This document shows, piece after piece, positions 2,550 through 36,141 of a DNA stretch of 56,569 bases. Source of the DNA: Pedobacter sp. (GTDB lineage: Bacteria; Bacteroidota; Bacteroidia; Sphingobacteriales; Sphingobacteriaceae). Position 1 is the stretch's first letter. Each line of letters begins with the position of its first letter. The translations under genes were made by a program, and so were the position numbers. The stretch spans positions 1 through 56,569 of the forward strand of contig JACMND010000140.1 in the NCBI GenBank assembly GCA_014378705.1, written 5' to 3'. The notes below the pieces were generated by a model that was not told the origin of the DNA, ran no database searches, and saw only the letters and a list, made by a program, of their open reading frames with translations.

Positions 2550-3572
2550 ATGGAGGTCGGAGTAGATAGTTTTGCTGCTGCCATGATTGGCGATGCGGAA
2601 GATAAGGCCATAAATAGTATGAATGCTTTGTCTGAACTTCTTGAACGTATTGAACATGCGGATAAAGTTGGTTTAAATGTATTTGGTATTGGTGAACATC
2701 ACCGCAGCGAATTTCTTGATTCAGCCCCTTCTATGATCCTGGCCGCTGCCGCGAGCCGGACTAAAAATATTCGTTTAACCAGTGCGGTTACTGTTCTTAG
2801 TGCCGCAGATCCGGTGAGGGTTTTTCAAAATTTCGCGACCTTGGATTTGATATCTAAAGGAAGAGCAGAAATTGTTGCCGGACGGGGTTCATTTACAGAA
2901 GCCTATCCGCTTTTTGGTTTGAACCTACAGGATTACGATCAGTTATTTGCTGAAAAACTTGAGCTTTTACTCAAAATCCGGGATCAGGAATATGTATCCT
3001 GGTCTGGTAAATTTCGTCCTGCTTTACATAACCAGGCAGTATATCCAAGGCCGCTTCAAAATCCCTTACCAATCTGGTTAGGAGTTGGTGGAACACCTGC
3101 TTCTTTTGTTAGAGCTGGAACTCTTGGCCTTCCTTTAATGGTAGCGATTATTGGAGGCGAAACTCACCGGTTCCGCCCCTTAGTTGATCTTTATCGCGAT
3201 GCTGGTAAAAAAGCGGGGCATCTACCTGAAAAATTAAAGGTTGGGTTACATTCACTCGGCTACATCGCATCAACCAAAGAGAAAGCAATTAATGATTTCT
3301 ATCCCGGTTATGCCCAAACTTTTACAAGGATAGGCAAAGAACGGGGCTGGCCACCTGTAACACGCCCCCATTTCGATTTACAAACAGGACCTTTGGGTGC
3401 CTTAATTGTAGGCGGACCAGAAGAAGTTGCCGAAAAAATAAGACGTCACAGTATCGCTCTCGGAGGTATCTCCCGGATCACTTTTCAAATGGACAACGCC
3501 AGGCTATCTCACGGGCAACTGATGCAATCCATTGAATTGTTAGGTACCAAGGTTATTCCATTGTTGAAATAA
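2550..3572 (+). CDS. LLM class (luciferase-like) flavin-dependent oxidoreductase
   Basis: 340-residue single-domain protein of the bacterial luciferase-like TIM-barrel family. Visible hallmarks are GIGEHHRSEF near the N-terminus, the SAVTVLSAADPVRVFQ strand-loop, the FATLDLISKGRAEIVAGRGS region that binds FMN phosphate, and a C-terminal GPLGALIVGGPEEVAEKI stretch. Such enzymes use FMNH2 or F420 and O2 to oxidise small organics. No reductase partner is encoded next to it. The ATG follows the transporter stop codon with no spacer, suggesting translational coupling. The substrate is not predictable. It ends 13 bp from the convergent glycosidase. Confidence 0.9.
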   Translation: MEVGVDSFAAAMIGDAEDKAINSMNALSELLERIEHADKVGLNVFGIGEHHRSEFLDSAPSMILAAAASRTKNIRLTSAVTVLSAADPVRVFQNFATLDLISKGRAEIVAGRGSFTEAYPLFGLNLQDYDQLFAEKLELLLKIRDQEYVSWSGKFRPALHNQAVYPRPLQNPLPIWLGVGGTPASFVRAGTLGLPLMVAIIGGETHRFRPLVDLYRDAGKKAGHLPEKLKVGLHSLGYIASTKEKAINDFYPGYAQTFTRIGKERGWPPVTRPHFDLQTGPLGALIVGGPEEVAEKIRRHSIALGGISRITFQMDNARLSHGQLMQSIELLGTKVIPLLK

Positions 3573-3585
3573 ATCCGGCAATTAA

Positions 3586-14973: not shown

Positions 14974-15014
14974 TTATACTTTGGATGTTAATATCAAGTT
15001 ATATGCAATTTTAT

Positions 15015-15794
15015 TTATGATTGTGTTACTTTACAAAATTGAATTTCTTTTATCCCAAAAGTTCGTAACTCCTGTTCAGTTTCTACTCTTAAAAATCCTT
15101 CTGATGTAACCCCACAAATTTTGCCTTTTTTAACTGAGCCGTCAATTATAAAATCTGCCCATTTGTGAAACAGGTATAGTTTGCCGAGATATGCAGCAAA
15201 GAGTTCTTTGCCCTTTCCTGCTTTTAATTGTAAATATCGGGCTTCTATTGAACTGCAAATTTCGTTCTTTAACCTATTTAAATCATAATCAGTATGCAAC
15301 ATTTTTTTAAACGAAGTTACATTTGTGAGTTCTTCAGGAAAAATTGTTTGATTAATATTCAGACCAATTCCGATAATGGCATGTTTTAAAAGGTTCCCCT
15401 GAATGAGGTTTTCAATTAAAATCCCTCCTATTTTATACTGCCCGATGTAACAATCATTTGGCCATTTAATTAAAGCCAAATCACCGAAATAGTTTGTTAA
15501 AACGTCGTTTAATCCTAAACTTACCACTATGTTTAAATCAAATTGATTTTTAACCCCTAAAAATTTGGGATTAAGTAAAATACTTAATGTAATGTTTTTG
15601 CCTTCTTCACTTTGCCAACTATTTTGTGCCTGTCCGCGGCCATTTGTTTGCTTTCCTGCCATTATAACAGTACCTTCTGGTAATGGCTTAGAATTTGACA
15701 ATAGTTGTTTTAAATAAATATTTGTTGAATCTACTTCATTTAATGTGACAGTATTATGGCCAACAAATAATCCTAAAAAAATGTTATTTTGCAA
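15015..15794 (-). CDS. birA: Biotin--[acetyl-CoA-carboxylase] ligase, monofunctional, TTG start
   Basis: 259 residues, catalytic and small C-terminal domains only, with no N-terminal DNA-binding HTH. It should therefore be a ligase and not the repressor. Motifs: EVDSTNIYLK, KQTNGRGQAQNSW (the GRGRRG biotinyl-AMP loop, here degenerate as GRGQAQ), KWPNDCYIGQYKIGGILIE, and GIGLNIN. The frame can only begin with TTG at 15794, since an in-frame TAA lies two codons upstream and the next ATG is inside the catalytic loop. Biotin carboxyl carrier proteins are the substrates. Its 5' end is only 43 bp from divergent rsfS, so the two promoters overlap. Confidence 0.9.
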   Translation of the reverse strand: MQNNIFLGLFVGHNTVTLNEVDSTNIYLKQLLSNSKPLPEGTVIMAGKQTNGRGQAQNSWQSEEGKNITLSILLNPKFLGVKNQFDLNIVVSLGLNDVLTNYFGDLALIKWPNDCYIGQYKIGGILIENLIQGNLLKHAIIGIGLNINQTIFPEELTNVTSFKKMLHTDYDLNRLKNEICSSIEARYLQLKAGKGKELFAAYLGKLYLFHKWADFIIDGSVKKGKICGVTSEGFLRVETEQELRTFGIKEIQFCKVTQS

Positions 15795-21335: not shown

Positions 21336-21989
21336 ATGTATGATTACTTTTTCTTGTTTCAGCTAGCCGCTTTACTGGTTTATAGCATTCAATTTAATAA
21401 ATTAAAAAGCACGCTCTATAAATGGTTTTTGCCATATTTAATTGTAATGGCGGTTTATGAGTTTGGAACATTTAACGGTTGGTTTACTGTCAGTGGAAGT
21501 AATCATTGGAGTTTTAACATTATTTCAACTTTGGAGTTTTTATTCTATGGCTATTTTCTGTTTAGGCTATTGCGAAAAAATAAAGCAAAGAGGATTTTCA
21601 CACTTGCTCTTTGCTTTACTCTTTTTGTAACCACACTGAATATCTTCTTTATACAGGGATTCTGGAAATTGCATACGTACTCCTACCTGTTGCAATCGGT
21701 AGTTATTATTGCTGCAACCTGCATGTTTTTCTATCAGCTAATGCAAAATGTACAAAGCAAAATACCGCTGTTCAGGAATCCGGATTTTTGGTTATGCACG
21801 GGTTTATTATTTTATTATCTGGGCAGTTTTATGTTTTTTGCTTCTTTCTCTCATATGGCATATAAGGGAAATCCCAATTATACAATGCTCTATCAGGTTA
21901 TTTATAATTTTTACAATATTATTCTCTACGTGTGTTTAATCAATTCATTCTTATGCTTCAGGAAGACAAAGATGTTATCATATTTATAA
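21336..21989 (+). CDS. Integral membrane protein, unknown function, possible sensor module
   Basis: 217 residues with about six to seven hydrophobic helices starting at the very N-terminus (FLFQLAALLVYSIQF) and short polar loops. There are no recognisable catalytic motifs. Its last 37 bases overlap the histidine kinase gene, which itself has only one membrane segment and no ligand-binding domain. The natural inference is that this protein provides the membrane sensing part for the kinase, as in 7TM-type sensors of Bacteroidota. Confidence 0.8.
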   Translation: MYDYFFLFQLAALLVYSIQFNKLKSTLYKWFLPYLIVMAVYEFGTFNGWFTVSGSNHWSFNIISTLEFLFYGYFLFRLLRKNKAKRIFTLALCFTLFVTTLNIFFIQGFWKLHTYSYLLQSVVIIAATCMFFYQLMQNVQSKIPLFRNPDFWLCTGLLFYYLGSFMFFASFSHMAYKGNPNYTMLYQVIYNFYNIILYVCLINSFLCFRKTKMLSYL

Positions 21990-22783
21990 TTGCCGGTACT
22001 GCGATACTACTCTTGCTTGGCATTTTCATTATAAGCTTTTTGTTTTTTTATCAGAAAAAACAAAATAGCTACATTAAAGAGAAGAATCAATTGAAAAACA
22101 ACTTTCGACAGGAACTCCTTAAAACTCAACTGGAAGTTCATGAACATACTTTAAATCATGTTTCACATGAGATTCATGATAATATAGGGCAGGTTTTGGC
22201 CTTCATTAAACTAAACCTTGGAAGTATTAAAGACCTGCCTCAGGCTGAAAAACAGGTGCGGATAGATGAAAGTCGGGATCTGGTTTCGCATGTAATTACT
22301 GATCTGCGGGATCTGTCTAAAAGTTTAAGTTACGAAACCTTGGTTACCAAAGGCCTGGCAGAAACTATCCGAATGGAAATAAACCGGATTAATAGAGCCG
22401 CGAATTTCTCCCTTGAATTTAATATAACCGGCCAGGTACTTCCGCTAAGTCAGCAGAGGGAATTGGTTGTGTTTCGAATCTTCCAGGAATGTATGCAGAA
22501 TATCATCAAACATTCTGAGGCTAATCAGCTTAAAATAACCTTGCAGTATTCAACCGAATTGTTTAATTTGATAATTGAAGATGATGGCATAGGTTTTTGT
22601 CCGGATGATGCGATAGAACAGGGAGGGGCCGGGCTGGAGAACATGAAAAGTAGGGCGAAACTTATTGACGCAACCATTTCTATAACCAGTTCATCGGGCA
22701 AAGGTTGTACTATAAAAGTCAGCCTAAACCCATCACAAATGCAAGTTAGTTTTGATGGATTGTACCCAAGTGGCCCTGATTGA
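21953..22783 (+). CDS. Sensor histidine kinase, NarX/HisKA_3 type
   Basis: 276 residues from the ATG at 21953 (an in-frame GTG at 21932 would add 7 residues). One membrane helix at about 8-33, then a coiled linker. The HisKA_3 motif SHEIHDNIGQ has phosphoacceptor His75. A HATPase_c domain has FQECMQNIIKHS (N box) and DDGIGF (G1), then GAGLENMKSRAKLI (G2). There is no extracytoplasmic sensing domain, so the signal must come from the membrane or a partner, probably the overlapping upstream membrane protein. Its 3' end overlaps the response regulator gene by 29 bp. Confidence 0.92.
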   Translation: MLQEDKDVIIFIIAGTAILLLLGIFIISFLFFYQKKQNSYIKEKNQLKNNFRQELLKTQLEVHEHTLNHVSHEIHDNIGQVLAFIKLNLGSIKDLPQAEKQVRIDESRDLVSHVITDLRDLSKSLSYETLVTKGLAETIRMEINRINRAANFSLEFNITGQVLPLSQQRELVVFRIFQECMQNIIKHSEANQLKITLQYSTELFNLIIEDDGIGFCPDDAIEQGGAGLENMKSRAKLIDATISITSSSGKGCTIKVSLNPSQMQVSFDGLYPSGPD

Positions 22784-23390
22784 TGATCATACCCTTTTTC
22801 GAAACGGGCTTGCTCGAATGGTAAATTGCTATCCCGGTTACCATGTATTGCTCGAAGCAGATAACGGTGAAGATTTCATCAGAAAAATTAGCAAAAAATT
22901 TAAACCCGATTTAGTTTTGCTGGACATCAGCATGCCTGTTATGGATGGGCCGGCTACTGCAACATGGCTCCGGCAGAATTTTCCGGAAATAGCTATTCTT
23001 GTACTAAGCACATTTGATGATGACGAAAAGGTACTCTCCATGATTAGCCTGGGCGTAAAAGGCTATATCCTGAAAGACTCTAAAGAGGATGAATTTATAA
23101 ATGCCTTAAACCTTGTGTCAGATTCAGGCACCTATTTCCCTGCATTTGTAACCAAGCACTTGGTGAAAAATTTCAATACCCGGAATGAAAAAATCAACTT
23201 AAATCCCAGGGAAATTGATTTTTTAAAGTTAAGCTGCAGCGAACTGACTTATAAAGAAATTGCCGGTAAGATGAACGTAAGTGCCCGCACCGTGGATGGA
23301 TACCGCGATCAGTTATTTGAAAAAATCCATGTTAAAAATCGCGTAGGGCTGGTGCTTTATGCCATTAAAAATAAATTTGTAGAACTCTGA
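22755..23390 (+). CDS. LuxR/NarL-family response regulator
   Basis: 211 residues. The receiver domain has acidic pair D10/D11, phospho-site Asp57 (VLLDISMP), the conserved Thr/Ser in VLSTFDDDE and Lys in YILKDS. The output domain is a GerE/LuxR HTH (LNPREIDFLKLSCSELTYKEIAGKMNVSARTVDGYR). It overlaps the kinase gene by 29 bp, so kinase and regulator are made together. The start is the ATG at 22755, just after an in-frame TTG. Targets are unknown; the gene train beginning at 23611 is the obvious candidate. A weak hairpin (23440-23456) follows. Confidence 0.93.
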   Translation: MDCTQVALIDDHTLFRNGLARMVNCYPGYHVLLEADNGEDFIRKISKKFKPDLVLLDISMPVMDGPATATWLRQNFPEIAILVLSTFDDDEKVLSMISLGVKGYILKDSKEDEFINALNLVSDSGTYFPAFVTKHLVKNFNTRNEKINLNPREIDFLKLSCSELTYKEIAGKMNVSARTVDGYRDQLFEKIHVKNRVGLVLYAIKNKFVEL

Positions 23391-23610: not shown

Positions 23611-24624
23611 ATGCCTGATCATTCTTTTGATATCTTTCCCTTCAAGGCTATTGATGGCTTTAAGTGCAATTTGTGGCGGTTAAGATCTGGTTCGGTCAAA
23701 GAAAAAGGTCCTGTGCTATTAGTTCATGGGGCGGGCGTTCGCAGTAATATTTTCAATCCGCCCAACGGCAAAAACCTGCTTCATGTTTTAAGTGTCGCGG
23801 GTTATGATGTATGGCTTGAAAACTGGCGAGGAAGTATGGAATGCCAAAAAAACGAATGGAATCTGGATCAGGTTGCATTTAACGATCACCCCGCGGCCGT
23901 TCAGGAAGTTTGCCGGGTTACAGGAGCAAAAAAAATTAAAGCTATTATCCACTGCCAGGGCTCAACAAGCTTTATGATCTCTGCCGTAAACGGATTTATT
24001 CCAGAGGTAGAAACGATTGTTTCCAATGCGGTTTCACTGCATCCTGTTGTTTCCAGTTTTGCCGCACTTAAACTTAATTACATTGTTCCCTTAGTAAAGC
24101 CAATTACTAAATACTTAAACCCGCAATGGGGCGACCATGCATCCGGCTTAAAGGAAAAGGCATTTCAGTTGCTTGTAAAATTTACGCATCGTGAAAAAGA
24201 TACCAACGTAGGGAAATTTGTAAGCTTTACCTATGGCAACGGTTATCCCGCGTTATGGGAACTTGAGAATTTAAACCCCGAAACAATGGAATGGATCAGG
24301 AATGAATTTGGGAATGTGCCTCTTTCATTTTTCGATCACATCAAAAAATGTGTCAGTACCGGAGCACTGGTATCGGCTAACGGCCAAATAAACTATAGTT
24401 CGTTCAAACCAAAAACCAATGCCCGAATTGTTTTTATTACAGGGAAAAAAAATAAATGCTTCAGCAGCAAAAGCCAGGAAGAAAGCTACACTTATTTTAA
24501 TGCTAAAAAGCCTGGCTATCACCGCTTTTATCAATTTGATCAGTACAGCCATTTGGATATTTTTTTAGGAAAAAATTCCATTAATGACATTTTTCCAACT
24601 ATTGTTAAAGAACTAAACATTTGA
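23611..24624 (+). CDS. Alpha/beta hydrolase with Cys at the nucleophile elbow, PhaC/acid-lipase-like
   Basis: 337 residues, no signal peptide. PVLLVHGAGVRSNIF (about 34-48) is the oxyanion-hole strand, and GYDVWLENWRGS (64-75) recalls acid lipases and PHA synthases. The nucleophile elbow reads AIIHCQGSTS, placing Cys115 where lipases have Ser. His314 in YSHLDIF is the likely catalytic His. Cys nucleophiles occur in PHA synthases and dienelactone hydrolases. Similar domains are, from memory, found fused to GMC oxidoreductases in other bacteria, and a GMC gene is in this cluster. A lipid-like ester or thioester substrate is inferred. Confidence 0.82.
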   Translation: MPDHSFDIFPFKAIDGFKCNLWRLRSGSVKEKGPVLLVHGAGVRSNIFNPPNGKNLLHVLSVAGYDVWLENWRGSMECQKNEWNLDQVAFNDHPAAVQEVCRVTGAKKIKAIIHCQGSTSFMISAVNGFIPEVETIVSNAVSLHPVVSSFAALKLNYIVPLVKPITKYLNPQWGDHASGLKEKAFQLLVKFTHREKDTNVGKFVSFTYGNGYPALWELENLNPETMEWIRNEFGNVPLSFFDHIKKCVSTGALVSANGQINYSSFKPKTNARIVFITGKKNKCFSSKSQEESYTYFNAKKPGYHRFYQFDQYSHLDIFLGKNSINDIFPTIVKELNI

Positions 24625-24636
24625 AGATTTTTGGTT

Positions 24637-25527
24637 ATGGGATTACCGCAACGCATTAAAGATTATACCGGGAGGTTTGCCCTCGTTGACGGCATCCCAT
24701 TTACCATGCCTGTTCAGGCTAAAAATTCGCCGGCACTAATGGCCGGTTTTTTCTGCGATTATAACAAAGCCCGAGAATTGCTTCCCGGAAACGAGATCCA
24801 TCCCGTAAGGTACTTTAACGGCAAGGCAATTTTTATGGTAACCGTAATTGATTACCGTGAAACAAGCATTGGAAAATATATTGAATACAGTATCGCTCTT
24901 GCCTGTACCCGCGGATTAAAACCAGCGCCGCTTATGCTACCTGTCGTTTTTATGAAATATTACCATACCGGACAGTTTATACTTGATTTGCCTGTTAGCT
25001 CAGAAATTTCTGTAAAAGGCGGTAAAGGTATTTGGGGGATGCCCAAGCACAAGGCAAGTCTTGATTTTTTAATCAGTGACCAAACAGTATCATCTCAATA
25101 TGAAAAAGACGGGCAATTTGCTTTTAGAATAGAGATTGAAAAACCCACTAAATGCAATTTACCGGTAAAAATTGGCTCAGTAAATTACAGCCATTTTAGA
25201 AATATGCTGATGGCATCCTATGTTAATATAAATGCAAAAGCCGGAATCCGTTTAGGGAAAAACGCCAAGGGAAAATTGTACATCGGCGATCATCCCCGAA
25301 CTCAATTTATGAAGAGTCTGAACATCGAAAGCAAACCCTTTTTTACTTTTTATACCCCTTCGGCTATCGGCGTTTTAGACGATCATTTTGAATGTTGGTT
25401 TATAACTTACCCAAATAATCCAGATAAAGTAACACCGGAAGGTTTCGAAAGCGTGGCCGATCTTGGCCTTAACGAAGATTGGCTACCTGCTCCATCCTTT
25501 ACAGATTATGCAAAATATAAAATCTGA
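24637..25527 (+). CDS. Acetoacetate decarboxylase-fold protein
   Basis: 296 residues from the ATG at 24637 (TTG two codons earlier is less likely). The segment GIWGMPKHKA (131-140) aligns with the Pro-Lys-Lys active site of acetoacetate decarboxylase, so Lys137 is the presumed Schiff-base lysine. The neighbouring pKa-tuning Lys is replaced by His138. Other family signs are PVRYFNGKAIFMVTVIDYRET and the C-terminal GVLDDHFECWFITY. Many such proteins are not decarboxylases but act as aldolase/dehydratases. It lies 12 bp after the hydrolase. The role is likely a small-molecule C-C bond or imine chemistry step in the locus. Confidence 0.82.
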   Translation: MGLPQRIKDYTGRFALVDGIPFTMPVQAKNSPALMAGFFCDYNKARELLPGNEIHPVRYFNGKAIFMVTVIDYRETSIGKYIEYSIALACTRGLKPAPLMLPVVFMKYYHTGQFILDLPVSSEISVKGGKGIWGMPKHKASLDFLISDQTVSSQYEKDGQFAFRIEIEKPTKCNLPVKIGSVNYSHFRNMLMASYVNINAKAGIRLGKNAKGKLYIGDHPRTQFMKSLNIESKPFFTFYTPSAIGVLDDHFECWFITYPNNPDKVTPEGFESVADLGLNEDWLPAPSFTDYAKYKI

Positions 25528-25543
25528 CCGTAATTTATTTGCG

Positions 25544-26032
25544 ATGAATAAAACAAAAAATACATTCCTCGACATAAATAATGCCTACATCTTTTTTTGC
25601 GCTTCTGTTTACCTGGGTATGTTCTGGTCATTGCATTTTTTCTGGTTTCCCAATTATCCCAAAACTTTAAATGTTGGCAACTACTACGATGCCATTATTC
25701 CGCAAACTAACCAGGCCACCAAATTCTTTTTCATCACTATTCCAATTATGGCATTGGCTATTCTCATTATGCTGATTACAGAATGGCGTAGCAAGTTAAT
25801 TTGGGTTCCACTAGCATGGATACCCGGTTTGACTGCACCGGTAATTATTCAGCAAAAATTTATAGAAGATATAAATAATCAGTTTAAGGCAGGTGTAACT
25901 GATCCGGTAATACTTCAAAAATTATTAAAAGACTGGATGTTTTGGAACGATGTCCGCTGGATTATCCTGACTGTAATGTGGCTGATCACCATGTATTTTT
26001 TTATTGCTAAAACGAGGAGGCATGAAGAATGA
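25544..26032 (+). CDS. Small integral membrane protein (DUF1772-like), unknown function
   Basis: 162 residues from the ATG at 25544, 16 bp after the previous stop (earlier in-frame starts would overlap it). There are four predicted helices: FFCASVYLGMFWSLHFFWF, FFFITIPIMALAILIMLI, IWVPLAWIPGLTAPVII, and WIILTVMWLITMYFFIA near the end. A loop holding FNPxxP-like NYPKTLNVGNYYDAIIPQTNQATKFF lies between helices 1 and 2. The overall form resembles the DUF1772 group, but that is a weak call. Position in the gene train suggests a membrane role in the same pathway. Confidence 0.7.
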   Translation: MNKTKNTFLDINNAYIFFCASVYLGMFWSLHFFWFPNYPKTLNVGNYYDAIIPQTNQATKFFFITIPIMALAILIMLITEWRSKLIWVPLAWIPGLTAPVIIQQKFIEDINNQFKAGVTDPVILQKLLKDWMFWNDVRWIILTVMWLITMYFFIAKTRRHEE

Positions 26033-26094
26033 TAAAATAAGAATTAGGATTACGGTTTAGGCTATTGTTTTATCTCATTAATCAATTCTCTCCT

Positions 26095-26475
26095 ATGAAA
26101 AAATATCTAAAACTCATCATTCTCCTCATATCCATAACCACCATTTTTTCTGGCATTCTTCAAATTATCTCACCGGGTTATGTTCTCAATTTTATAGGTG
26201 CAGATATTACCTCTGCGACAAAACATTTTTTTGCCATTTTAGGCATGTTCATGGCTCTTTTTGGCGGGATGATGATTCAGGCGTTATACAGTGTTCATAC
26301 AAATGAAGCTGCAGTTTTATGGGCTTCATTTCAAAAACTGGGTGCTTCATTGGCTGTTGGCTTAGGAATTTTTTATGGAATATTTAATGAGTTTGCATTA
26401 AGTGTGGCGATTTTCGACCTACTCTCAGGCTGTATAATTTTATGGTATTACGTAGGAGAAAGGAACAATGATTAA
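26095..26475 (+). CDS. Small integral membrane protein, unknown function
   Basis: 126 residues from the ATG at 26095 (a TTG at 26065 is the only earlier start). Four hydrophobic helices, including a signal-anchor-like N-terminus, and the middle stretch HFFAILGMFMALFGGMMIQALY. No catalytic motif was found. It resembles the DUF4345 type of small four-helix proteins. It is 62 bp after the previous gene and 60 bp before the next, so operon membership is likely. Confidence 0.7.
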   Translation: MKKYLKLIILLISITTIFSGILQIISPGYVLNFIGADITSATKHFFAILGMFMALFGGMMIQALYSVHTNEAAVLWASFQKLGASLAVGLGIFYGIFNEFALSVAIFDLLSGCIILWYYVGERNND

Positions 26476-26535
26476 AAATTATTCTTTCCTCAAACTCACA
26501 ACTCACAACTCTGTGCTCCTTTATTCCTGCTCTTT

Positions 26536-26958
26536 ATGAAACTGACAAGCAATTTTTTCTTTTATACGTATACAGGCTTGATAGTTTTGAGGGAGTTTGG
26601 GGGTGCTTTTATCAATCCGGATTTTAATTTCCGTTTCCTTTTCGGGATGGAAGTTTCGGCATTGCCGGATTCAAATCGTATTAATTTAATAAGTCACTAT
26701 CACTTTTTGAGAGCTCTGGAATTAGGATTTGGCATTTTTACGCTGATATTTCAAAAAGAAATTTTCTCTGATCACAAGTTCAATAGCCTGTTCCTATTCA
26801 TCTTGGCTTCCTTAATACTTGGCCGGATGGTATCGCTTGTTGCGGATGGAATACCAAATGGTCTGACTCCATTTTTCATCGCTTATGAATTCATCGGCCT
26901 GATCATAATTTATATGTATACAAAAAGACATATAGGGTTTTATACCATGGCATCCTAA
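26536..26958 (+). CDS. Small integral membrane protein (DUF4345-like)
   Basis: 140 residues with four hydrophobic segments. The loop after helix 1 (NPDFNFRFLFGMEVSALPDSNRINLISHYHFLRALELGFG) fits the DUF4345 pattern, in which a short charged His/Arg patch follows the first membrane span. A second polar patch is DGIPNGLTP. Function is unknown. Four bases separate it from the patatin-like gene. Confidence 0.7.
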   Translation: MKLTSNFFFYTYTGLIVLREFGGAFINPDFNFRFLFGMEVSALPDSNRINLISHYHFLRALELGFGIFTLIFQKEIFSDHKFNSLFLFILASLILGRMVSLVADGIPNGLTPFFIAYEFIGLIIIYMYTKRHIGFYTMAS

Positions 26959-26962
26959 ACTA

Positions 26963-28369
26963 ATGGAAAATGAACACGAAATCAAACGCTCACTGATTCT
27001 TGCCGGAGGAGGCGTACGCCTGGCCTACCATGCGGGAGTTTTACAAGCTTTAGAACAGGCAGGAATATCTTTTAACCACGTTGATGGAACTTCGGGTGGC
27101 ATTTTTGGTACAGCCATGATGGCTTCGGGTGTAAGCCCTACCGAGGCGGCCAAACGCTGGAGAAACCTAAACCTGAAGGGATTTATGCGAATACTTCCGA
27201 TTAAAAATTATTTAAGCCGCCATAACCTCGAGGCTATGGGAAGTGCAGACGGTATACGCAAAAAAATATTCCCCGGGTTAGGCATCGACTTAACAAAAAT
27301 TAATGCCCTTAACGCTTTAAATGCCACTTTTAATGTTTGCAATTTTTCAAATAAAAGAATAGAATCCATACCTCATAACGAAGTAACAGAAGATCATTTG
27401 ATTGCAGGTATGTCCCTGCCAATTTTTATGCCTGCAATTAAAATTAAAACGGATTGGTATACAGATGCAGTTTGGATAAAAGATGCCAATTTAACCGAGG
27501 CAATTAATCGGGAAGCAGAAGAAATCTGGTTAATCTGGTGCATCGCTAATACCCGCTCTTATCTAAACGGCGCTTTAAATCAATACGTTCACATGATTGA
27601 AATGAGTGCCAACGGCGGGTTGTTTACAGAAATAGAGTTGCTTCAACAAATAAATCTCCAACGTTTGCAGAATAGTCTAAAACCGATTCAACTTCACATC
27701 ATCAAACCTGAATATCCTTTACCGCTTGATTCAGATTTTTTGTTAAACCACATTAACGCGGATACGCTAATTAATATGGGTTATGCGGATGCCAGCCAAT
27801 ATATTTTAAACAGGTTACCTTTTAATATGGCTATGGATTTCAGCCAGTCAACTTCAATGAAACAACCCGGAATAACGGTTCATTTTAGACAACAGTTTAA
27901 AGGCAGAATAATGCTGAATGGCAAGAATCGAACTGCTAGTATTCACCTGTCATTTTTCTTAAGAGAAATCAATATGCAAGTAGTTACAACTTGCTATTCT
28001 TCAATTTCGTGTGATACCGAGAATTTTATATCGGGGTACCAAAACCAGGTGGTAAATGCTGGAAATGGCGTGATTCAGCCGGAATTTATATTTATATTTA
28101 ATAAGCAAAAATATGTAATGAAGGTAGAAATCAAAATGAAAAATTTAATAGATTTTTTATTGGGATTAGAATGTAAAACAGCAGTAGTTAGTTTAATTAA
28201 AAATGGCAATGATTTGGAAAAATCCCTTTTTATTCAGCCAGCTTTGAATCGTGTTATCAACTTGTTTTATTTATACACCATAGCAGAATTGTCATGGATA
28301 AAGAAAAGAGAGGCAAAATTAAGAATTCTAAAAACGTTGTTTAAAACACATTTAAAAAATTCTACTTAA
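26963..28369 (+). CDS. Patatin-like phospholipase
   Basis: 468 residues, no signal peptide. The patatin core is at the N-terminus: oxyanion-hole GGGVRLAYHAG (15-25), nucleophile elbow GTSGG with Ser44, and the catalytic Asp in WYTDAVW (Asp168). The usual DG is replaced by DA, and the following NP is NL. Residues beyond about 270 form a C-terminal part of roughly 200 residues that I do not recognise. It is predicted to be an acyl hydrolase on phospholipids or other lipid esters. Codon use and composition look like its neighbours. Confidence 0.85.
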   Translation: MENEHEIKRSLILAGGGVRLAYHAGVLQALEQAGISFNHVDGTSGGIFGTAMMASGVSPTEAAKRWRNLNLKGFMRILPIKNYLSRHNLEAMGSADGIRKKIFPGLGIDLTKINALNALNATFNVCNFSNKRIESIPHNEVTEDHLIAGMSLPIFMPAIKIKTDWYTDAVWIKDANLTEAINREAEEIWLIWCIANTRSYLNGALNQYVHMIEMSANGGLFTEIELLQQINLQRLQNSLKPIQLHIIKPEYPLPLDSDFLLNHINADTLINMGYADASQYILNRLPFNMAMDFSQSTSMKQPGITVHFRQQFKGRIMLNGKNRTASIHLSFFLREINMQVVTTCYSSISCDTENFISGYQNQVVNAGNGVIQPEFIFIFNKQKYVMKVEIKMKNLIDFLLGLECKTAVVSLIKNGNDLEKSLFIQPALNRVINLFYLYTIAELSWIKKREAKLRILKTLFKTHLKNST

Positions 28370-28418
28370 TTGCAAATACCTTTCTTATAGCCTGATTGCT
28401 ATATTCAAAACTATTTGA

Positions 28419-30149
28419 ATGAACAACAAATACAAACAGTCTGGAATGGTCAATTGGTTCGAGCCAAGAATACTATTTCAAACAGGACTTAAATCAGCAT
28501 TCTCCAGCCTTTTAGGAAACTATGCCGATCGCCGCGAAATGCAGGCGGCGTTGGATGTTCCTCTTCCGGGAAGCAAAATTAGTAATGAGATTGCGGAGTA
28601 TACTGCTCTTGATGAGATCTGGATAGATTTTATCAGCGATACTGGTGATGGGTTTAATTCCACATATTCGGTGGCTGTAACTGCTGCCCAGCCGCAACTA
28701 TCCGTAAATTTAAAGGGTTTAGAGAAGATACTTCCAAGAGCCAAAGTTTTAATATTGGGTGGTGATCAGATTTACCCGACACCTACCAGCGATATTTATG
28801 ATAATAAGTTTCGCATCCCGTTTGAATCTGCTTTACCTACAATTAAGGGCGACGATAATTACCCGCATATGTATGCTATCCCCGGCAACCACGACTGGTA
28901 CGACGGGCTGGGAAGTTTTTTAAAGGTTTTTTGCCAGCAGCGCTGGATCGGAAACTGGAAAACGATGCAAACGAGGAGCTACTTTGCAATTCCAATGCCT
29001 TATAATTATTGGATTTGGGCTACCGATATCCAATTGAACGAAGATATTGATAAACCACAGCTCAATTATTTTATGGATGTGGCCAAAAATAAAATGCAGC
29101 CCGGCGCCAAGGTTATATTATGTACCGCGGAACCTGCTTGGATATACAAGGAATTGTATGTTAACGACAAATCTTATGACCGATTGCGTTTTTTTATTGA
29201 AACGTATATTACCGATGACAAAGCCGGTATTATAGGGCAGAAATTCAAGTTAGCCACGGTACTTACTGGAGACCTGCACCATTATTCACATTATTGTTTT
29301 AAAGATGAAAACGGGGAAGCAAATCATTATATCGGTGCTGGCGGCGGCGGGGCATTTTTGCATCTAACCCATAATCTTCCTAAAAAACTTAATAAATTAA
29401 AGGAAAGTGGAATTGCACTTCAAAGTGCCTTCCCAGAAAAAGCAGACTCCATCCGCTTGTTGTTTGGCAACCTGATTTTTCCTTTAAAAAACTATTATTT
29501 CTCTATTCTCCTTGGAGGAATTTACCTGCTGATTTACTGGTTGCTTCAAAGTCGTTTTGCACAAGCAAAAAGCCAAAATTATATTTTACACTTAAATAGT
29601 CAGCCATTTTTAGAGTATTTGAAGGATACTTTTAATACCATTTTGTACACGCCCTTTCTGGCCTTGTTGACGCTTGCGCTATTGGCCGGTTTTTACAAAT
29701 TAACAGATGTGAAAACCGGTATGAAAGGAGTTAAGCTGTGGGGATTTTCCCATAGCTTGCTTCAAATATTTTTAATTTATCTGATGATCTGGCTTTTTGC
29801 GAATAGCCCGCATCAAAGCATCGACCCTACAGATTGGCAGTTCATTTATATTCTTGAACTCTGGATTGCAGGTAGTTTTGTTGGCGGTTTATTAATGGGG
29901 TTTTACTTACTGATCTCAAATTTATTATTCGGAATTCATATAGATGAATCTTCTTCTTCACTGGCTTCCCAACATTACAAAAACTTTCTGCGAATGAGTA
30001 TTAATCACGAAGGATTAACAATTTATCCTATTGGCATTAAAAAAGTAACTACCCATTGGCAGCAAACAGCAGAAGGTGAACATCTTCGTTTTAATGGTAA
30101 ACTGCCTGAATACCATCTCATCGAAAAACCAATATTCATTAAAAAATAA
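28419..30149 (+). CDS. Membrane-anchored metallophosphoesterase
   Basis: 576 residues. The calcineurin-like core has DTGDGF (about 74-79, in the place of the usual DxH), GGDQIYP (114-120), GNHDW (156-160), and TGDLHHYSHYCF (about 284-295), giving the ligands of a dinuclear metal site. The C-terminal third has four to five hydrophobic helices (FSILLGGIYLLIYWLL, FLALLTLALLAGFY, LLQIFLIYLMIWLFA, GSFVGGLLMGFYLLI) that should anchor it in the membrane. The N-terminus lacks a signal peptide, so the catalytic domain is probably cytoplasmic. Substrate unknown. It ends 4 bp before the GMC gene. Confidence 0.85.
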   Translation: MNNKYKQSGMVNWFEPRILFQTGLKSAFSSLLGNYADRREMQAALDVPLPGSKISNEIAEYTALDEIWIDFISDTGDGFNSTYSVAVTAAQPQLSVNLKGLEKILPRAKVLILGGDQIYPTPTSDIYDNKFRIPFESALPTIKGDDNYPHMYAIPGNHDWYDGLGSFLKVFCQQRWIGNWKTMQTRSYFAIPMPYNYWIWATDIQLNEDIDKPQLNYFMDVAKNKMQPGAKVILCTAEPAWIYKELYVNDKSYDRLRFFIETYITDDKAGIIGQKFKLATVLTGDLHHYSHYCFKDENGEANHYIGAGGGGAFLHLTHNLPKKLNKLKESGIALQSAFPEKADSIRLLFGNLIFPLKNYYFSILLGGIYLLIYWLLQSRFAQAKSQNYILHLNSQPFLEYLKDTFNTILYTPFLALLTLALLAGFYKLTDVKTGMKGVKLWGFSHSLLQIFLIYLMIWLFANSPHQSIDPTDWQFIYILELWIAGSFVGGLLMGFYLLISNLLFGIHIDESSSSLASQHYKNFLRMSINHEGLTIYPIGIKKVTTHWQQTAEGEHLRFNGKLPEYHLIEKPIFIKK

Positions 30150-30153
30150 TGTT

Positions 30154-32505
30154 ATGGACAAATTATCACAACCTATAACCCGTTTACAACCAGAGTACGA
30201 TGTCGTTATAATTGGAAGTGGATATGGTGGTAGCATTGCTGCCAGTCGTTTTTCGCGAGCCGGTTTAAAAGTTTGCTTATTAGAAAAAGGTAAAGAGTTT
30301 CAGCCCGGAGACTATCCGTCTACGATGGCCGAGGCAACGAAAGAGATGCAGATTAATGCCGATCAGCGTGAAGCTAAAAAAAACGGTTTATATGATTTGC
30401 ATATCAGCAAAAACATATCGGTATTTAAAGGTTGCGGGCTGGGTGGCACATCGCTTGTTAACGCCAATGTCTCCATCAAACCAGAGGAGCGGGTATTTCA
30501 TGATGAGTGTTGGCCAGAAGCCATTCGCAACCATCGCGAGGGGCTAGATGAGGGATATGAAAGAGCCAGAGAAATGCTTAAACCGATGCCATACCCGGTA
30601 AATGTAAACGGCTATCCAGAGCTTTCGAAGGCAAAAGCAATGCAGAAATCAGCAGAAAAAAATCAACAACCCTTTCAATACGCAGATATAAACGTTTGTT
30701 TTGAAACCGGCATCAATCATGTCGGCGTTCAACAGCACAAATGTATTAACTGTGGTGATTGTGTAACCGGATGCAATCATCACGCTAAGAATACCCTTAT
30801 CATGAATTATCTGCCTGATGCCGTTAACCATGGCACCGAAATATTCTGCAACATAAATGTGGAGTATGCTGAGCAGGTTGCTGGTAAGTGGGTAGTATAT
30901 TTTGATGTTTTAAATACGAGCCGGGAGGATTTTAAAGCACCTTACCTATTTGTGAGGGCGACTACCGTTATTATTTCAGGCGGTGCTTTAGGGAGTACAG
31001 AAATTTTGCTTCGTTCCAAACAAAAGGGGCTTGAAGTTTCTAAAAAATTGGGCAAGCATTTTACAGGAAACGGAGATGTTCTTGGGTTCGCATACAATTG
31101 TGAAGATGAAATTAACGGAATTGGCTTGGGGAAACTTGCTAATGAAGACCGCTATAAACCAATTGGCCCTGTTGGTCCCTGCATTACAACGATTATTGAT
31201 CTGCGCAACCAGGAAAAATTGGAAGACGGAATGACCCTGGAAGAGGGTAGTATTCCTGGCCCTGTTGCCAATGCCATAAACATGAGCATGCTTTCCCTGT
31301 CCGGAACCATTGGTGTTGATACCGATGGTGGGTTTTCTGACTGGATGAAAGAATGCCAGGAAGAAGCCGAAAGCCTTATCCGGGGACCTTATCATGGAGC
31401 CACTAATAAAACGCAGACTTTTTTGGTTATGACTCACGACGATGGAAAAGGCGAGATGAATTTAAAAGATGGAAAGCTTAATATTGATTGGCCTGATGTT
31501 GGGAAACAACCTATTTTTAAAAAAGTAAGCAACACCATGCTTAAAGCAACCGCGGCGCTTGGCGGAAAGTACATTAAAAGTGTGGCCTGGAATAAACTTA
31601 TGGATTTTCAGTTAATTACCGTTCATCCCCTTGGCGGATGCAGTATGGCTGATAACGCGACAGATGGGGTTACCAATGATATCGGAAATGTTTACTTTGG
31701 CAATAACGGAACTCTTACCCATCCAGGCTTATACGTTCTTGATGGCGCCATTATCCCAAGGCCGCTGGGCACCAATCCCTTGTTTACCATATCAGCTTTG
31801 ACAGAAAGGGCCTGCAAAATAATACTGGAAAGAATGAACCTGCAAACGTCTTACGATTTTCCAAAAGTGATGGCCAAAACTTTTCAGCCAAAACCAACGG
31901 TACAGTTTACAGAAACCATGCGGGGATATTTTAGCAAGGATGAAAAAGAGGATTTTGAAATTGGTTACCGACAAGGGAAAGAAAACTGTTCGCCGTTTAT
32001 GTTTACCCTTACCATACAAGCCGTAGATATAAATATGTTTGTGACTGATCCCGGTCATACCGGTTACATGGCAGGTAGTGTTATAGCGCCTGCCTTATCT
32101 GATAAACCGTTAACTATCAGTAACGGTGTCTTTAATCTTTTTGTGAAGGAAGAGGATACAAACCACAAAAAAATGAAATACCAAATGCAATTAAATACCT
32201 ATGACGGGCGGCAATATTTTTTTTGCGGTTACAAAAAGGTAGAAGATGATGCCGGTTTTGACATGTGGAAAGACACGACCATTCTTTACATCACTGTTTT
32301 TGATGGCAAAAATAACACCGCGGCAATTTTAGGTAAAGGGGTTTTAAAAATTATCCCGATAGATTTTGCCACCCAGATGGGAACAATTAAAGCACTAAAT
32401 ACAAATAATAAGCTGGAATCTTTAATGGCTATTAAATCATTTTCTACTTTTTTCAGCAGCAATATTGTTGATACTTACTTTAGCAAATTTTTTGGAAATG
32501 ATTGA
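30154..32505 (+). CDS. GMC-family FAD oxidoreductase, cholesterol-oxidase-like, with ferredoxin-type cysteine motif
   Basis: 783 residues from the ATG at 30154. FAD Rossmann motif YDVVIIGSGYGGSIAASRF (15-33) and GMC signature GCGLGGTSLVNANV (93-106). C197-x2-C200-x2-C203-x3-C207 matches a 4Fe-4S ferredoxin motif. The catalytic region HPLGGCSMADNATDG comes near residue 494, followed by GTNPLFTISA. Residues past about 600 form a beta-rich extension. An Fe-S cluster would make this a dehydrogenase passing electrons to a carrier instead of an O2-using oxidase. Cholesterol-like substrates are typical of this branch, but Bacteroidota rarely make sterols, so hopanoids or other alcohols should be considered. 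Confidence 0.85.
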   Translation: MDKLSQPITRLQPEYDVVIIGSGYGGSIAASRFSRAGLKVCLLEKGKEFQPGDYPSTMAEATKEMQINADQREAKKNGLYDLHISKNISVFKGCGLGGTSLVNANVSIKPEERVFHDECWPEAIRNHREGLDEGYERAREMLKPMPYPVNVNGYPELSKAKAMQKSAEKNQQPFQYADINVCFETGINHVGVQQHKCINCGDCVTGCNHHAKNTLIMNYLPDAVNHGTEIFCNINVEYAEQVAGKWVVYFDVLNTSREDFKAPYLFVRATTVIISGGALGSTEILLRSKQKGLEVSKKLGKHFTGNGDVLGFAYNCEDEINGIGLGKLANEDRYKPIGPVGPCITTIIDLRNQEKLEDGMTLEEGSIPGPVANAINMSMLSLSGTIGVDTDGGFSDWMKECQEEAESLIRGPYHGATNKTQTFLVMTHDDGKGEMNLKDGKLNIDWPDVGKQPIFKKVSNTMLKATAALGGKYIKSVAWNKLMDFQLITVHPLGGCSMADNATDGVTNDIGNVYFGNNGTLTHPGLYVLDGAIIPRPLGTNPLFTISALTERACKIILERMNLQTSYDFPKVMAKTFQPKPTVQFTETMRGYFSKDEKEDFEIGYRQGKENCSPFMFTLTIQAVDINMFVTDPGHTGYMAGSVIAPALSDKPLTISNGVFNLFVKEEDTNHKKMKYQMQLNTYDGRQYFFCGYKKVEDDAGFDMWKDTTILYITVFDGKNNTAAILGKGVLKIIPIDFATQMGTIKALNTNNKLESLMAIKSFSTFFSSNIVDTYFSKFFGND

Positions 32506-32615: not shown

Positions 32616-33434
32616 CTACTTTCCCAAATATTTAGTAAAAACCCATCCTTCCAAATCCATTAAACCATCAACTATATCATCCACTTCCACAAAAGACCAG
32701 TTGCCTTGGGTTTTAAGCATAGTTACCTTCGTGCCTTCCGGCAGAGGGTTAGCAAGAGTATTATATGCAGTTCCTGGTCCTGAACGTATGTTTAAAACAC
32801 TTAAAGTAATGTAGCTGTCGATGTTTTCATTCCTTCTTCCCATGGCACGGCCTCTAAAACTTTTCATCGGAAAAGCCGGGCCCGGGTCTGATTTTCGGAT
32901 AGGCGAAATATCCTCATGACCCAAAATATCAACCAGCTTATAGGTTTTTACTAATAGCGCAGCAATCTCTTGCGTAACTTCAAGCTGTGCTTCGGTATAC
33001 TCCTGCCATAAAGATTCTTGTGTTTCATTTTTATGAATGGCAATCATCACGTCGTCGTCACTTACCGACTTTTTATCAACCGGGCAAATGCATTTTTCCC
33101 CAATTTTTGATAATCGGCCAGCATTGACAAGTTCAATCCCAATTGAATATTTATTCATGCCATTTAAACCGGCCCATATACTTTTACCGGCATGCCACGT
33201 AATTAAATTAAAAGGTGCTAATTGTGTTATGGTTCCTTCCCTGCCAATAATCAAATGCGCTGATGCCTGGGCAATTGGACTAATTAACCAACTTATCGCA
33301 GATTGTTCTGTAGTTGCAGCGGTATAATGGATAATTAAATATTGCGGTATATACCTTCCTCCTTTATTTGGAGTGGGACGATAATTGACCTGTACATCAT
33401 CATGGCCATATAACTGGTGATTTAAGATTTTCAT
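32616..33434 (-). CDS. N-acetylmuramoyl-L-alanine amidase (Amidase_2) with C-terminal SH3 domain, no signal peptide
   Basis: 272 residues from the ATG at 33434 (a TTG ten codons earlier is possible). The Amidase_2 core has zinc ligands His36 (LIIHYTA), His173 (LGHEDI) and Asp183 (KSDPGPAF), plus Lys181. The C-terminus is an SH3-like domain (LNIRSGPGTAYNTLANPLPEGTKV). The enzyme cleaves the MurNAc-L-Ala bond of peptidoglycan. No signal peptide or membrane helix is visible, so it should be cytoplasmic unless released by a lysis or secretion system. It is the last gene of a five-gene minus-strand run. Confidence 0.87.
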   Translation of the reverse strand: MKILNHQLYGHDDVQVNYRPTPNKGGRYIPQYLIIHYTAATTEQSAISWLISPIAQASAHLIIGREGTITQLAPFNLITWHAGKSIWAGLNGMNKYSIGIELVNAGRLSKIGEKCICPVDKKSVSDDDVMIAIHKNETQESLWQEYTEAQLEVTQEIAALLVKTYKLVDILGHEDISPIRKSDPGPAFPMKSFRGRAMGRRNENIDSYITLSVLNIRSGPGTAYNTLANPLPEGTKVTMLKTQGNWSFVEVDDIVDGLMDLEGWVFTKYLGK

Positions 33435-33504
33435 TTGAATAGATATTAGATTACAAATTAGCAAGTGTTTTGATGGGTCTAAAAACTCAAACAGTACTTA
33501 TTAC

Positions 33505-34378: not shown

Positions 34379-35653
34379 TTATTTTACTTCAGGATTTAAA
34401 CTTCCGCTATTAAGCGCCGAATCTCCATCTTTAGTTTTTACGATAATTGAATTTGACGCTGCAACACGGTCATCAGTCATTGTGTTGGTAGAAGTAGTTT
34501 CGTGTTTAATAGAACTTCTTAATTTCATTAGCTTGTTTAACAAATCAAACCAGAAAGGGGCACCTAAGGAAATGGCGATCGCGGTGAGCAGAAATCCAAA
34601 AAAGTGCTTTTTCACCATTCGAAAGAAATAAAGCCGTTTATCTTTCCCATTAAAATCAAGGTAATAATTGGTTGTTAAAAATTTGGAATATTGATCATGC
34701 GGCAGTATATCTTTTTCTATCCCAACCGGATAAATTCTGCTTTTTTTTATTGGATTTACCTCAATCAACATTTTATCGGGTAACCAGCTTCCGCTACCCA
34801 ATAAAGTGCTTGCGTTTATAACCGCATCTTCCAGATTTTTTCTTACACCCAAAAGTGAATCAAGTCGTTCAGAATATACCGTAGCCTCATCCCTGGTTAA
34901 GGCTGCTTTAATGCTTTCAGGGCTTTGTTTAATATTTTGCTGATAAACATTTGCCATGTTAACCATTTGTTCTCTGGCACTTTTATCCTGAGACAATTTT
35001 TTAACCATAACCAGTGTATCTGCATTAAATATCCAGGCTAAAAAAAATCCTATAACCAGCAAGACCAATTGTATTTTGCGCTTGTACCATTCCGTTGCCT
35101 GTTCCATGGTGCGCTCAAACCAAGCTTCTAACTGCTGTTTAAAACGGGTCACATCGCCGTAAGACTCCTCCCATAAACTAAGTACATAAGATGCCGTTTC
35201 CTTACCTAAAATTTTAGGGGCGTTATTTCTGAGCTCAGATTCAATTTTTAAAGGATCAAGCGTTCCACTTCCATTTAAAATGTACATCATGGTTTTAGAA
35301 AAACTTACCGCTTTAAAAGACGAGGGGTTTCTAAAAATGCCGGAACTTCCCAGATACTTTATTTCCGGATGATTGTAAAAATTTGTTACATGTACATTTT
35401 TAGGATTTTTCATTAAGCGTAAAGAGTCGATACTGCGCTTTATTTTATCCCAGATCCAGCCTATTGGATGATTTAGCGATTTAATATTTTCGTTTTCATC
35501 ATTGAGCATCCGGTCTATCGCTTCTTTCAGATTGCGGGCTCTTAAACCAAGGTTGGTGGCTATAATTTCGGCGAGAACGGTCGCCAATAGACTATATAAT
35601 AAGTAAATAAAAACCAGACCTATTACTACATCTAATGCAACGCTATTGAACAT
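34379..35653 (-). CDS. Large membrane protein of unknown function
   Basis: 424 residues with an N-terminal helix (LDVVIGLVFIYLLYSLLATVLAEIIATNLGLRARNLKEAI) whose pattern I associate with a widespread but uncharacterised membrane family. Further helices are at about residues 200-218 and 350-375, with a large polar domain (220-340) between them and a Ser/Thr-rich tail. Topology would put the middle domain outside. It is the second gene of the five-gene run and the largest product, so it is likely the scaffold of whatever the cluster makes. Confidence 0.7.
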   Translation of the reverse strand: MFNSVALDVVIGLVFIYLLYSLLATVLAEIIATNLGLRARNLKEAIDRMLNDENENIKSLNHPIGWIWDKIKRSIDSLRLMKNPKNVHVTNFYNHPEIKYLGSSGIFRNPSSFKAVSFSKTMMYILNGSGTLDPLKIESELRNNAPKILGKETASYVLSLWEESYGDVTRFKQQLEAWFERTMEQATEWYKRKIQLVLLVIGFFLAWIFNADTLVMVKKLSQDKSAREQMVNMANVYQQNIKQSPESIKAALTRDEATVYSERLDSLLGVRKNLEDAVINASTLLGSGSWLPDKMLIEVNPIKKSRIYPVGIEKDILPHDQYSKFLTTNYYLDFNGKDKRLYFFRMVKKHFFGFLLTAIAISLGAPFWFDLLNKLMKLRSSIKHETTSTNTMTDDRVAASNSIIVKTKDGDSALNSGSLNPEVK

Positions 35654-35781: not shown

Positions 35782-36141
35782 CTAATTATCCTTATCATTA
35801 CAAATCTCATCAGACAGGCCAATAAATTTATTAACAGCCAAATCTACTTTGGGGCCTGTAAAAATCTGTATTGTCTTAAGTAAGGTTTTAATTTGTAAGC
35901 TGCTGTAAACCAGGCAAAATTTACCTTGTCCGCCTGTTGCTTCACCAATTCCATCGGCAGCAACTTCAAGTTGATCCAACCGTTTATCAATTTTTTTACC
36001 AGTTATTAATTTCACCAGGCTTAATGCCGGCTTAATAGTTCCCTGCCAGATCAGGGAAAATTGCTCAATTGAATTTTCAGATTTCTCTGCATTGTTTAAA
36101 ACTTCTGTAACGTTCGATTCGATTTCCTGTTTAGTCATCAT
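35782..36141 (-). CDS. Small protein of unknown function, first gene of the minus-strand cluster
   Basis: 119 residues, no signal peptide. An acidic helical N-terminus (KQEIESNVTEVLNNAEKSENSIEQF) precedes a stretch with three Lys-Leu-rich helices (LSLVKLITGKKIDKRLDQLEVAADGIGEATGGQGKF). No domain was recognised. A gap of 128 bp separates it from the membrane protein gene, so it may be co-transcribed or independent. The divergent region to 36348 is very AT-rich and probably holds promoters for both directions. Confidence 0.6.
   Translation of the reverse strand: MMTKQEIESNVTEVLNNAEKSENSIEQFSLIWQGTIKPALSLVKLITGKKIDKRLDQLEVAADGIGEATGGQGKFCLVYSSLQIKTLLKTIQIFTGPKVDLAVNKFIGLSDEICNDKDN

Follow-up and report, generated by a model that had tools for sequence, protein, structure and literature searches.

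What function, if any, unites eight closely packed genes for hydrolases, a decarboxylase-like protein, small membrane proteins, a phosphoesterase and a flavoprotein in a Pedobacter genome? The question is raised by positions 23611-32505 of a contig of 56,569 nucleotides from Pedobacter sp. (JACMND010000140.1, assembly GCA_014378705.1), the whole of which is referred to here as the window. The eight-gene grouping is not a product of chance, as the same families recur in fixed order in several phyla. Tentatively, and with slightly less than even confidence, the eight genes are read as one accessory operon that would act at the cytoplasmic face of the inner membrane to break down or remodel a lipid that is hydrophobic and bears oxygen. 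The features on which this reading draws are as follows:

21932-23390, + strand: two-component kinase and LuxR-type regulator, upstream of the cassette and a possible regulator of it
23611-24624, + strand: ABH, alpha/beta hydrolase, 337 aa, resembling acid lipases and polyhydroxyalkanoate (PHA) synthases, with Cys115 at the nucleophile elbow, Asn281 and His314
23953-23955, + strand: codon of Cys115 of ABH, in the nucleophile elbow
24637-25527, + strand: ADC, acetoacetate-decarboxylase-like protein, 296 aa, PF06314, conserved Lys137
25547-26032, + strand: TM1, small membrane protein with three hydrophobic segments, Anthrone_oxy (PF08592)-like by way of its Pedobacter ortholog
26095-26475, + strand: TM2, small membrane protein with three hydrophobic segments, no family
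26536-26958, + strand: TM3, small membrane protein with two hydrophobic segments, DUF4345 (PF14248)
26963-28369, + strand: PAT, patatin-type lipase, 468 aa, Ser44-Asp168 dyad
28419-30149 (alternative start 28446), + strand: MPE, metallophosphoesterase, 576 aa, a purple-acid-phosphatase-like domain, after which come membrane helices and, at the C-terminus, a beta segment
30154-32505, + strand: GMC, cholesterol-oxidase-like flavin adenine dinucleotide (FAD) oxidoreductase, 783 aa, with C-terminal domain X
30742-30774, + strand: Cys motif of GMC (C197, C200, C203, C207), in which C197-x5-C203-x3-C207 is spaced like known 3Fe-4S ligands
31951-32490, + strand: domain X of GMC, about 170 aa, found as well in ABH fusions, as stand-alone proteins and in some patatins

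The genes stand in the order ABH-ADC-TM1-TM2-TM3-patatin-MPE-GMC, all on the plus strand, with intergenic gaps of 12, 19, 62, 60, 4, 49 and 4 bp. A first-pass annotation had described eight plus-strand genes with small gaps over the same span, with which the open reading frame list agrees (4-62 bp), and its assignments (a hydrolase, an acetoacetate-decarboxylase fold, a patatin, a membrane metallophosphoesterase and a GMC flavoprotein, besides the three small membrane proteins) are supported by Pfam, profile or structure matches or, for the small membrane proteins, by hydrophobic segments, ABH falling just below its Pfam cut-off. The locus had also been called undescribed, and no description of the gene set was found in the literature searched, a body of work that excluded preprints and most subscription papers. 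The annotated plasmid records examined label the cassette proteins only as hydrolase, metallophosphoesterase or GMC oxidoreductase. In one study (PMC12542777) a GMC enzyme makes gluconate, and the part of the text that was available draws no link to the patatin of that study. The eight genes would presumably share one transcript. A sigma-70 promoter scan was uninformative (30 sites against 29.5 expected), and terminator-like sites, at 16 against 9.4 expected, were located within genes and were not used as evidence.

Gene order and co-occurrence across genomes

Loci for comparison were gathered with a profile made from three aligned MPE proteins, and the best 80 of 288 relatives from a contig scan were kept. 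By MPE, the nearest named relative of the window is a Pedobacter. Together with the window, L011 and L012 the 80 make up 83 MPE loci, to which 10 and a further eight were added to give 101 in total; the profiles used to label genes were built from the same loci that they labelled. GMC lies near MPE in 29 of the 83, and it is around these that the other families gather: with GMC as against without it, ABH is found near MPE in 22/29 and 1/54 loci, ADC in 11/29 and 0/54, patatin in 9/29 and 1/54, and TM1, TM2 and TM3 in eight, nine and five of the 29 as against none of the 54. In these counts 80 of the 83 loci had been picked by closeness of their MPE, and some of the contigs are short. When only loci with over 5 kb to either side of MPE are counted (59 in all), ABH is present in 18/21 loci with GMC as against 0/38 without, ADC in 10/21 as against none, and patatin in 8/21 as against one. 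No such association is seen for the control, the upstream two-component genes (kinase 2/29 with GMC and 3/54 without, regulator 4/29 and 7/54).

ABH, ADC, patatin and GMC occur together in 12 of the 101 loci, termed full cassettes, and in all 12 the order ABH-ADC-(TM)-patatin is kept on one strand. TM2 accompanies them in every case, TM1 in 11 (it is absent in L030) and TM3 in six, TM2 and TM3 being swapped in L104. MPE is found in 11 of the 12, and in nine it directly precedes GMC among the labelled genes. Within the Bacteroidota the full cassettes are those of the window, L011, L013 (Pedobacter), L014 (Cyclobacterium), L019 (Aquiflexum), L081 (Prolixibacteraceae), L104 and L108; beyond it they come from Rhizobium (L059), Rhodocyclales (L030), Holophagaceae of the Acidobacteriota (L043) and an Arthrobacter plasmid (L097). 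The cassette order is accordingly retained across Bacteroidota, Proteobacteria, Acidobacteriota and Actinomycetota. At first pass, a lack of co-occurrence in other genomes had been named as the result that would speak against a functional locus; the families do co-occur, and in fixed order across phyla. Pairwise protein distances also correlate in all ten pairs formed by five of the proteins (Mantel r 0.42-0.85, p <= 0.0052; 11 or 12 loci).

Two of these loci carry features of their own. The cassette of the Arthrobacter plasmid, which is unannotated (L097, 7212-16333), lacks TM3 and is arranged as GMC-MPE-ABH-ADC-TM1-TM2-PAT. In L108 MPE is missing, and a gene beside the patatin (3234-4337, minus strand) resembles another metallophosphoesterase by eye, with no Pfam match.

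Co-occurrence extends to whole genomes. MPE is rare, being present in three of 247 genomes of the host's class. In a phylum sample of 395 genomes GMC (E <= 1e-40) was found in seven, MPE (E <= 1e-30) in six and both in five, an overlap whose chance probability is 1.6e-9 by genome and 4.5e-7 by genus, kinship being otherwise uncorrected. At the genus level four genera share GMC and MPE, with 6 and 4 positive of 170. Among eight GMC genomes, namely the seven of the phylum sample and G157, MPE adjoins GMC in five and lies elsewhere in one (G520).

The distribution is best read as patchy, and the cassette as accessory. ADC (E <= 1e-30) occurs in two of 20 genomes of the genus, and both carriers have the same flanks, these being, as judged by eye from sequence, LUD-type and secreted-protein genes at one end and, at the opposite end, genes for radical-SAM and ketoacyl-synthase proteins. 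Rarity in the genus together with common surroundings in both carriers points to an accessory cassette that is nevertheless shared by descent in this pair. Several copies are plasmid-borne. A phage collection gave just three partial GMC matches, at no more than 32 % identity, so the cassette is not a phage feature.

Fusions, active sites and predicted folds

The physical joining of the parts provides a second line of evidence. GMC, domain X and ABH form a single reading frame in 11 of the 101 loci (L012, L025, L050, L054, L067, L095, L105, L113, L114, L115 and L116), of which L050 and L095 are a near-identical pair from Azospirillum oryzae; in L022 GMC is fused to ABH and domain X is separate. 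Actinobacterial fusions of this kind, mentioned at first pass, do exist in a mycobacterium (L067), and GMC-ABH fusions are also found in Bacteroidota, Alphaproteobacteria, Variovorax and Leptospira. An Ensifer plasmid protein of 1908 aa (L117, 9821-15544) combines GMC, ABH and a PhoD-like phosphatase (PF09423, E 3.4e-22), so that on at least one occasion a single polypeptide has come to combine oxidation with acyl hydrolysis or transfer and with the cleavage of phosphoesters.

Domain X, at residues about 600-776 of GMC, is the recurring link. It lies between GMC and ABH in the fusions, at the N-terminus of ABH in L028 and L087, alone in L022, L029 and L118, and at the C-terminus of the patatin in L030, L033, L043, L059, L104 and L108 (E 9e-54 to 1e-62), which are six of the 13 loci with a patatin match. 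No usable match was obtained in Pfam (three stand-alone copies, E up to 1) or NCBIfam (one copy), and the best hit of a profile against PDB sequences was unrelated (E 0.3). Domain X would serve as a docking or lipid-contact module common to GMC, ABH and patatin. In L087, from a Thermoleophilaceae metagenome-assembled genome, ADC and a second GMC appear in broken or shifted frames near MPE (13487-15747), with GMC and X-ABH genes upstream on the opposite strand.

GMC itself matches both Pfam domains of its family above cut-off (GMC_oxred_N, E 4.5e-15; GMC_oxred_C, E 1.1e-8). Its AlphaFold2 model has a predicted local distance difference test score (pLDDT) of 78 and a predicted template-modelling score of 0.85, some parts falling below pLDDT 50, including the Cys loop 204-211. 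The best structural match is cholesterol oxidase (Foldseek E 3.2e-26; Z 36.1, root-mean-square deviation 2.8 over 443 residues), followed by fructose and glucose dehydrogenases at Z about 31; the VIA-align rows for the model cover mostly residues 1-563. GMC shares with the Streptomyces cholesterol oxidase 1b4v the fold (Z 36.1), the FAD site and the positions of the His/Asn pair: His491 is present in 47/47 rows and Asn541 in 43/47, in stretches aligned with HPLGGC and GVNPF of the catalytic region of 4u2l. Unlike the cholesterol oxidases, GMC carries C-terminal domain X and has operon or fusion partners, and 4u2l has no Cys in the stretch aligned with the Fe-S-type Cys motif of GMC.

Of these cysteines, C197, C203 and C207 are found in 46/46 rows with a residue there and C200 in 39/46, rows that include near-identical pairs such as the two from Azospirillum. 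In the FAD glucose dehydrogenase of Burkholderia (BcGDH) Cys212, Cys218 and Cys222 bind a 3Fe-4S cluster (PMC6719666). The C-x5-C-x3-C spacing of GMC is that of these ligands, spacing being what was compared rather than superposed structures, and GMC is on this basis probably an Fe-S-bearing dehydrogenase; the mostly conserved fourth Cys, C200, may permit a 4Fe-4S cluster instead. The likeness to the 3Fe-4S FAD glucose and fructose dehydrogenases (6a2u, 8jej) extends to fold and Cys spacing. In contrast to these complexes, no hitchhiker small subunit or multihaem cytochrome c was matched among the eight cassette genes with Pfam and NCBIfam, and export of GMC is not evident.

ABH narrowly misses its Pfam family (PF00561, E 1.3e-5, 25.4 bits against a cut-off of 25.8), and a profile of 20 relatives compared with the PDB found gastric lipase best (E 2.3e-15), then lysosomal acid lipase, followed by PHA synthase and PhaZ7. 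It resembles gastric and lysosomal acid lipases in the alpha/beta-hydrolase profile and the local motif Y/xHLD, but differs in having Cys in place of the Ser nucleophile and Asn at the presumed acid position. The elbow reads HCxG, with Cys115 in 33/34 rows and Ser in one, rather than the GxSxG of serine acid lipases, and both Asn281 and His314 are present in 33/33 rows. With these three residues ABH would lean towards acyl transfer or thioester chemistry.

The remaining proteins were assigned with varying ease. ADC exceeds the cut-off of PF06314 (E 3.4e-12, 46.8 bits against 29.8) and has no significant match by sequence among solved structures. It shares with acetoacetate decarboxylase the Pfam family and has an invariant Lys in a PK motif that may correspond to the Schiff-base Lys, Lys137 being present in 14/14 rows with a residue there (rows not aligned to a characterised enzyme). 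This Lys is followed by His; in the classical acetoacetate decarboxylase a second Lys follows. TM1 has no Pfam match of its own, and its Pedobacter ortholog matches Anthrone_oxy above cut-off (PF08592, E 5.2e-7) and its Aquiflexum ortholog below it (E 0.032). TM2 matches no family, and TM3 matches DUF4345 above cut-off (PF14248, E 9.5e-7). The patatin is above the cut-off of PF01734 (E 5.9e-19) and contains GxSxG and Asp; Ser44 and Asp168, presumably the catalytic dyad, are each present in 13/13 rows.

MPE passes the Metallophos cut-off (PF00149, E 1.2e-4, 23 bits against 21.5), and its predicted model (pLDDT 87) is closest in Foldseek to human purple acid phosphatase (E 4.1e-8), with SMPDL3 and PhoD also found. 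D65, D107, Y110, N148, H149 and H278, which we take to be the metal ligands, are each conserved in 92/92 rows. The metallophosphoesterase fold and metal-site-type residues are thus held in common with purple acid phosphatase, PhoD and the SMPDL3 phosphodiesterases, whereas the C-terminal membrane domain sets MPE apart, and the similarity is moderate (TM-score 0.53 by target, 1war).

A possible lipid pathway and its alternatives

Hydrolases, a membrane phosphoesterase, a putative Fe-S alcohol dehydrogenase and a decarboxylase form a plausible chain for an esterified, phosphorylated hydroxy-lipid. The patatin, through its Ser-Asp dyad, and ABH, through its Cys nucleophile, would remove or transfer acyl groups, and the membrane-anchored, purple-acid-phosphatase-like MPE would remove a phosphate or phospho-head group. 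GMC might then oxidise the freed secondary hydroxyl in the manner of cholesterol oxidase, its electrons moving from FAD through the putative Fe-S cluster to an acceptor in the membrane. If the oxidised hydroxyl were beta to a carboxyl, ADC could decarboxylate the resulting beta-keto acid, and TM1-TM3 may hold or accept substrate or electrons. A simple hydrophobicity scan found no segment above threshold in ABH, ADC, patatin or GMC; export is thus not evident, which suggests that these four act at the cytoplasmic face. The term lipid redox/hydrolysis used at first pass fits the enzyme folds and active sites, and as a statement of function it rests on family knowledge; the accompanying mention of isoprenoids is unsupported, squalene-hopene cyclase being above cut-off in none of eight genomes, in which other isoprenoid genes were not searched for.

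Several observations weigh against a single eight-gene pathway. GMC is absent from the vicinity of MPE in 54 of the 83 MPE loci, and of 14 genomes chosen from among these, 12 have no close GMC at all and two have one elsewhere; the MPE family is broad and also serves elsewhere. Two of the eight GMC genomes searched are without MPE (G399 and G497). Patatin stands near MPE without GMC once (L033), as does ABH (L041, on a contig of 3.3 kb). GMC-ABH fusions exist with no ADC, TM1-3 or patatin nearby, from which it follows that the ADC step cannot be essential everywhere. Asn541 of GMC is replaced in four of the 47 rows (three His, one Lys), and the hydrophobicity scan behind the cytoplasmic placement is a crude one. 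Finally, domain X is not demonstrable in the patatin of the window (hhalign E 0.46; with other cuts the best E is 0.0016 at a probability of at most 16 %), compared with 5e-66 in a positive control that set the X of patatins against the X of the remaining proteins. The C-terminal third of the window patatin does match domain X of other patatins in position, homology not being shown.

In one alternative the locus would be a mosaic, with GMC-X-ABH a unit of its own and ADC-TM-patatin and MPE separate modules merely co-carried on mobile DNA. Subsets do occur alone (GMC-ABH without the rest, MPE by itself, GMC-ABH-ADC-TM-PAT without MPE in L108), a Cupriavidus plasmid (L094) has MPE-GMC next to a molybdenum-enzyme pair, and several copies are on plasmids. 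The fixed order in 12/12 full cassettes over several phyla, correlated divergence, the common domain X and the GMC-ABH-PhoD fusion all argue the other way, and we regard a mosaic as unlikely. Rather improbable is the use of sterol or hopanoid esters, in which ABH and patatin would cleave a sterol or triterpenoid ester, GMC oxidise the 3-hydroxyl and ADC then remove the C-4 carboxylate. The closest solved relatives do favour it: GMC is nearest to cholesterol oxidase, ABH to gastric lipases and to lysosomal acid lipase/cholesteryl ester hydrolase. Yet GMC scores 167.3 bits against the 850-bit cut-off of the NCBIfam cholesterol-oxidase equivalog (NF058674), and in the eight genomes neither squalene-hopene cyclase (one sub-cut-off match, G318) nor 3-oxosteroid dehydrogenase, an unspecific family with sub-cut-off matches in all 14 control genomes, rises above cut-off. 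Hopanoid synthesis and that step of steroid breakdown are therefore not evident; a scavenged sterol might still be used.

A PHA-like or beta-hydroxy-lipid metabolism would have ABH act as a PHA synthase or depolymerase, GMC oxidise the beta-hydroxyl and ADC yield a methyl ketone. ABH does resemble PHA synthase and PhaZ7, the nucleophile of PHA synthase is likewise Cys, and ADC chemistry requires a beta-keto acid. With 17.9 bits against a cut-off of 365.3 (TIGR01836), ABH nonetheless lies far below the PHA synthases, it has Asn281 where enzymes of the PHA synthase and PhaZ7 type have a catalytic Asp (a position not aligned here), and no phasin or beta-ketothiolase was matched among the eight genes; we consider this account rather improbable. 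An anti-phage or envelope-attack island is highly improbable. Patatins are known defence effectors, and an Amidase_2 gene lies downstream in the window and beside L104, but PADLOC returned one weak phospholipase match (E 0.0039) among ten proteins (seven of the eight from the cassette, TM3 excepted, and three flanking), no sensor or nucleotidyltransferase is found among the eight genes, and enzymes of metabolic type dominate.

The accessory lipid operon proposed above could be extended to a new lipid pathway spread horizontally through several phyla. In it the Cys-His-Asn ABH would be an acyl transferase, the Fe-S GMC dehydrogenase would feed electrons from membrane-lipid alcohols into the membrane by way of new TM1-TM3 proteins, and the new domain X would gather hydrolase, patatin and dehydrogenase on one substrate. 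As a whole this extension seems fairly unlikely.

Neighbouring genes and wider meaning

The upstream kinase and LuxR-type regulator are both kept in the genus relative L011, and among the ten other full cassettes a regulator match occurs only in L013 and a kinase match only in L104. Six neighbouring families recur in at least three of 46 loci compared. Those of possible relevance are a membrane protein and a molybdenum-hydroxylase pair (three loci each); the others resemble, by eye, sensor kinases, protein kinases and a Bug-type binding protein. Clustering of the 83 neighbourhoods gave no further recognisable partner family of GMC-bearing loci.

On the Cupriavidus plasmid (L094, 7123-9877) a molybdenum-cofactor enzyme (MoCoBD_1 and _2) and a [2Fe-2S] subunit lie directly upstream of MPE-GMC, and in L014 and L019 relatives of the pair follow the cassette at a distance of about 6 kb. 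The substrates that such molybdenum-cofactor enzymes oxidise are often aldehydes or heterocycles; the pair could possibly suit an oxidation series, three loci being too few to claim a link. A membrane protein of the window (34382-35653, minus strand), which has no Pfam family above cut-off, may be a further partner; one relative adjoins the L081 cassette on its upstream side, and another adjoins a lone MPE in the same way on a Rhizobium phaseoli plasmid (L093). Just downstream of GMC, at 32619-33464 on the minus strand, is an Amidase_2 protein with an SH3 domain, and Amidase_2 is also found just downstream of the L104 cassette. A small protein at 35785-36141 (minus strand), with no Pfam family, is also encoded near the L011 cassette and had no other match in the loci searched.

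The order kept over several phyla and the repeated fusion of its parts point to a real pathway that lacks a description in the literature searched. From it follow the predictions that a cholesterol-oxidase-like enzyme should contain an Fe-S cluster, that an acid-lipase-like protein should use Cys as its nucleophile, and that an unnamed domain should link the two. Recognising these genes as one system would redirect both annotation and lipidomics.

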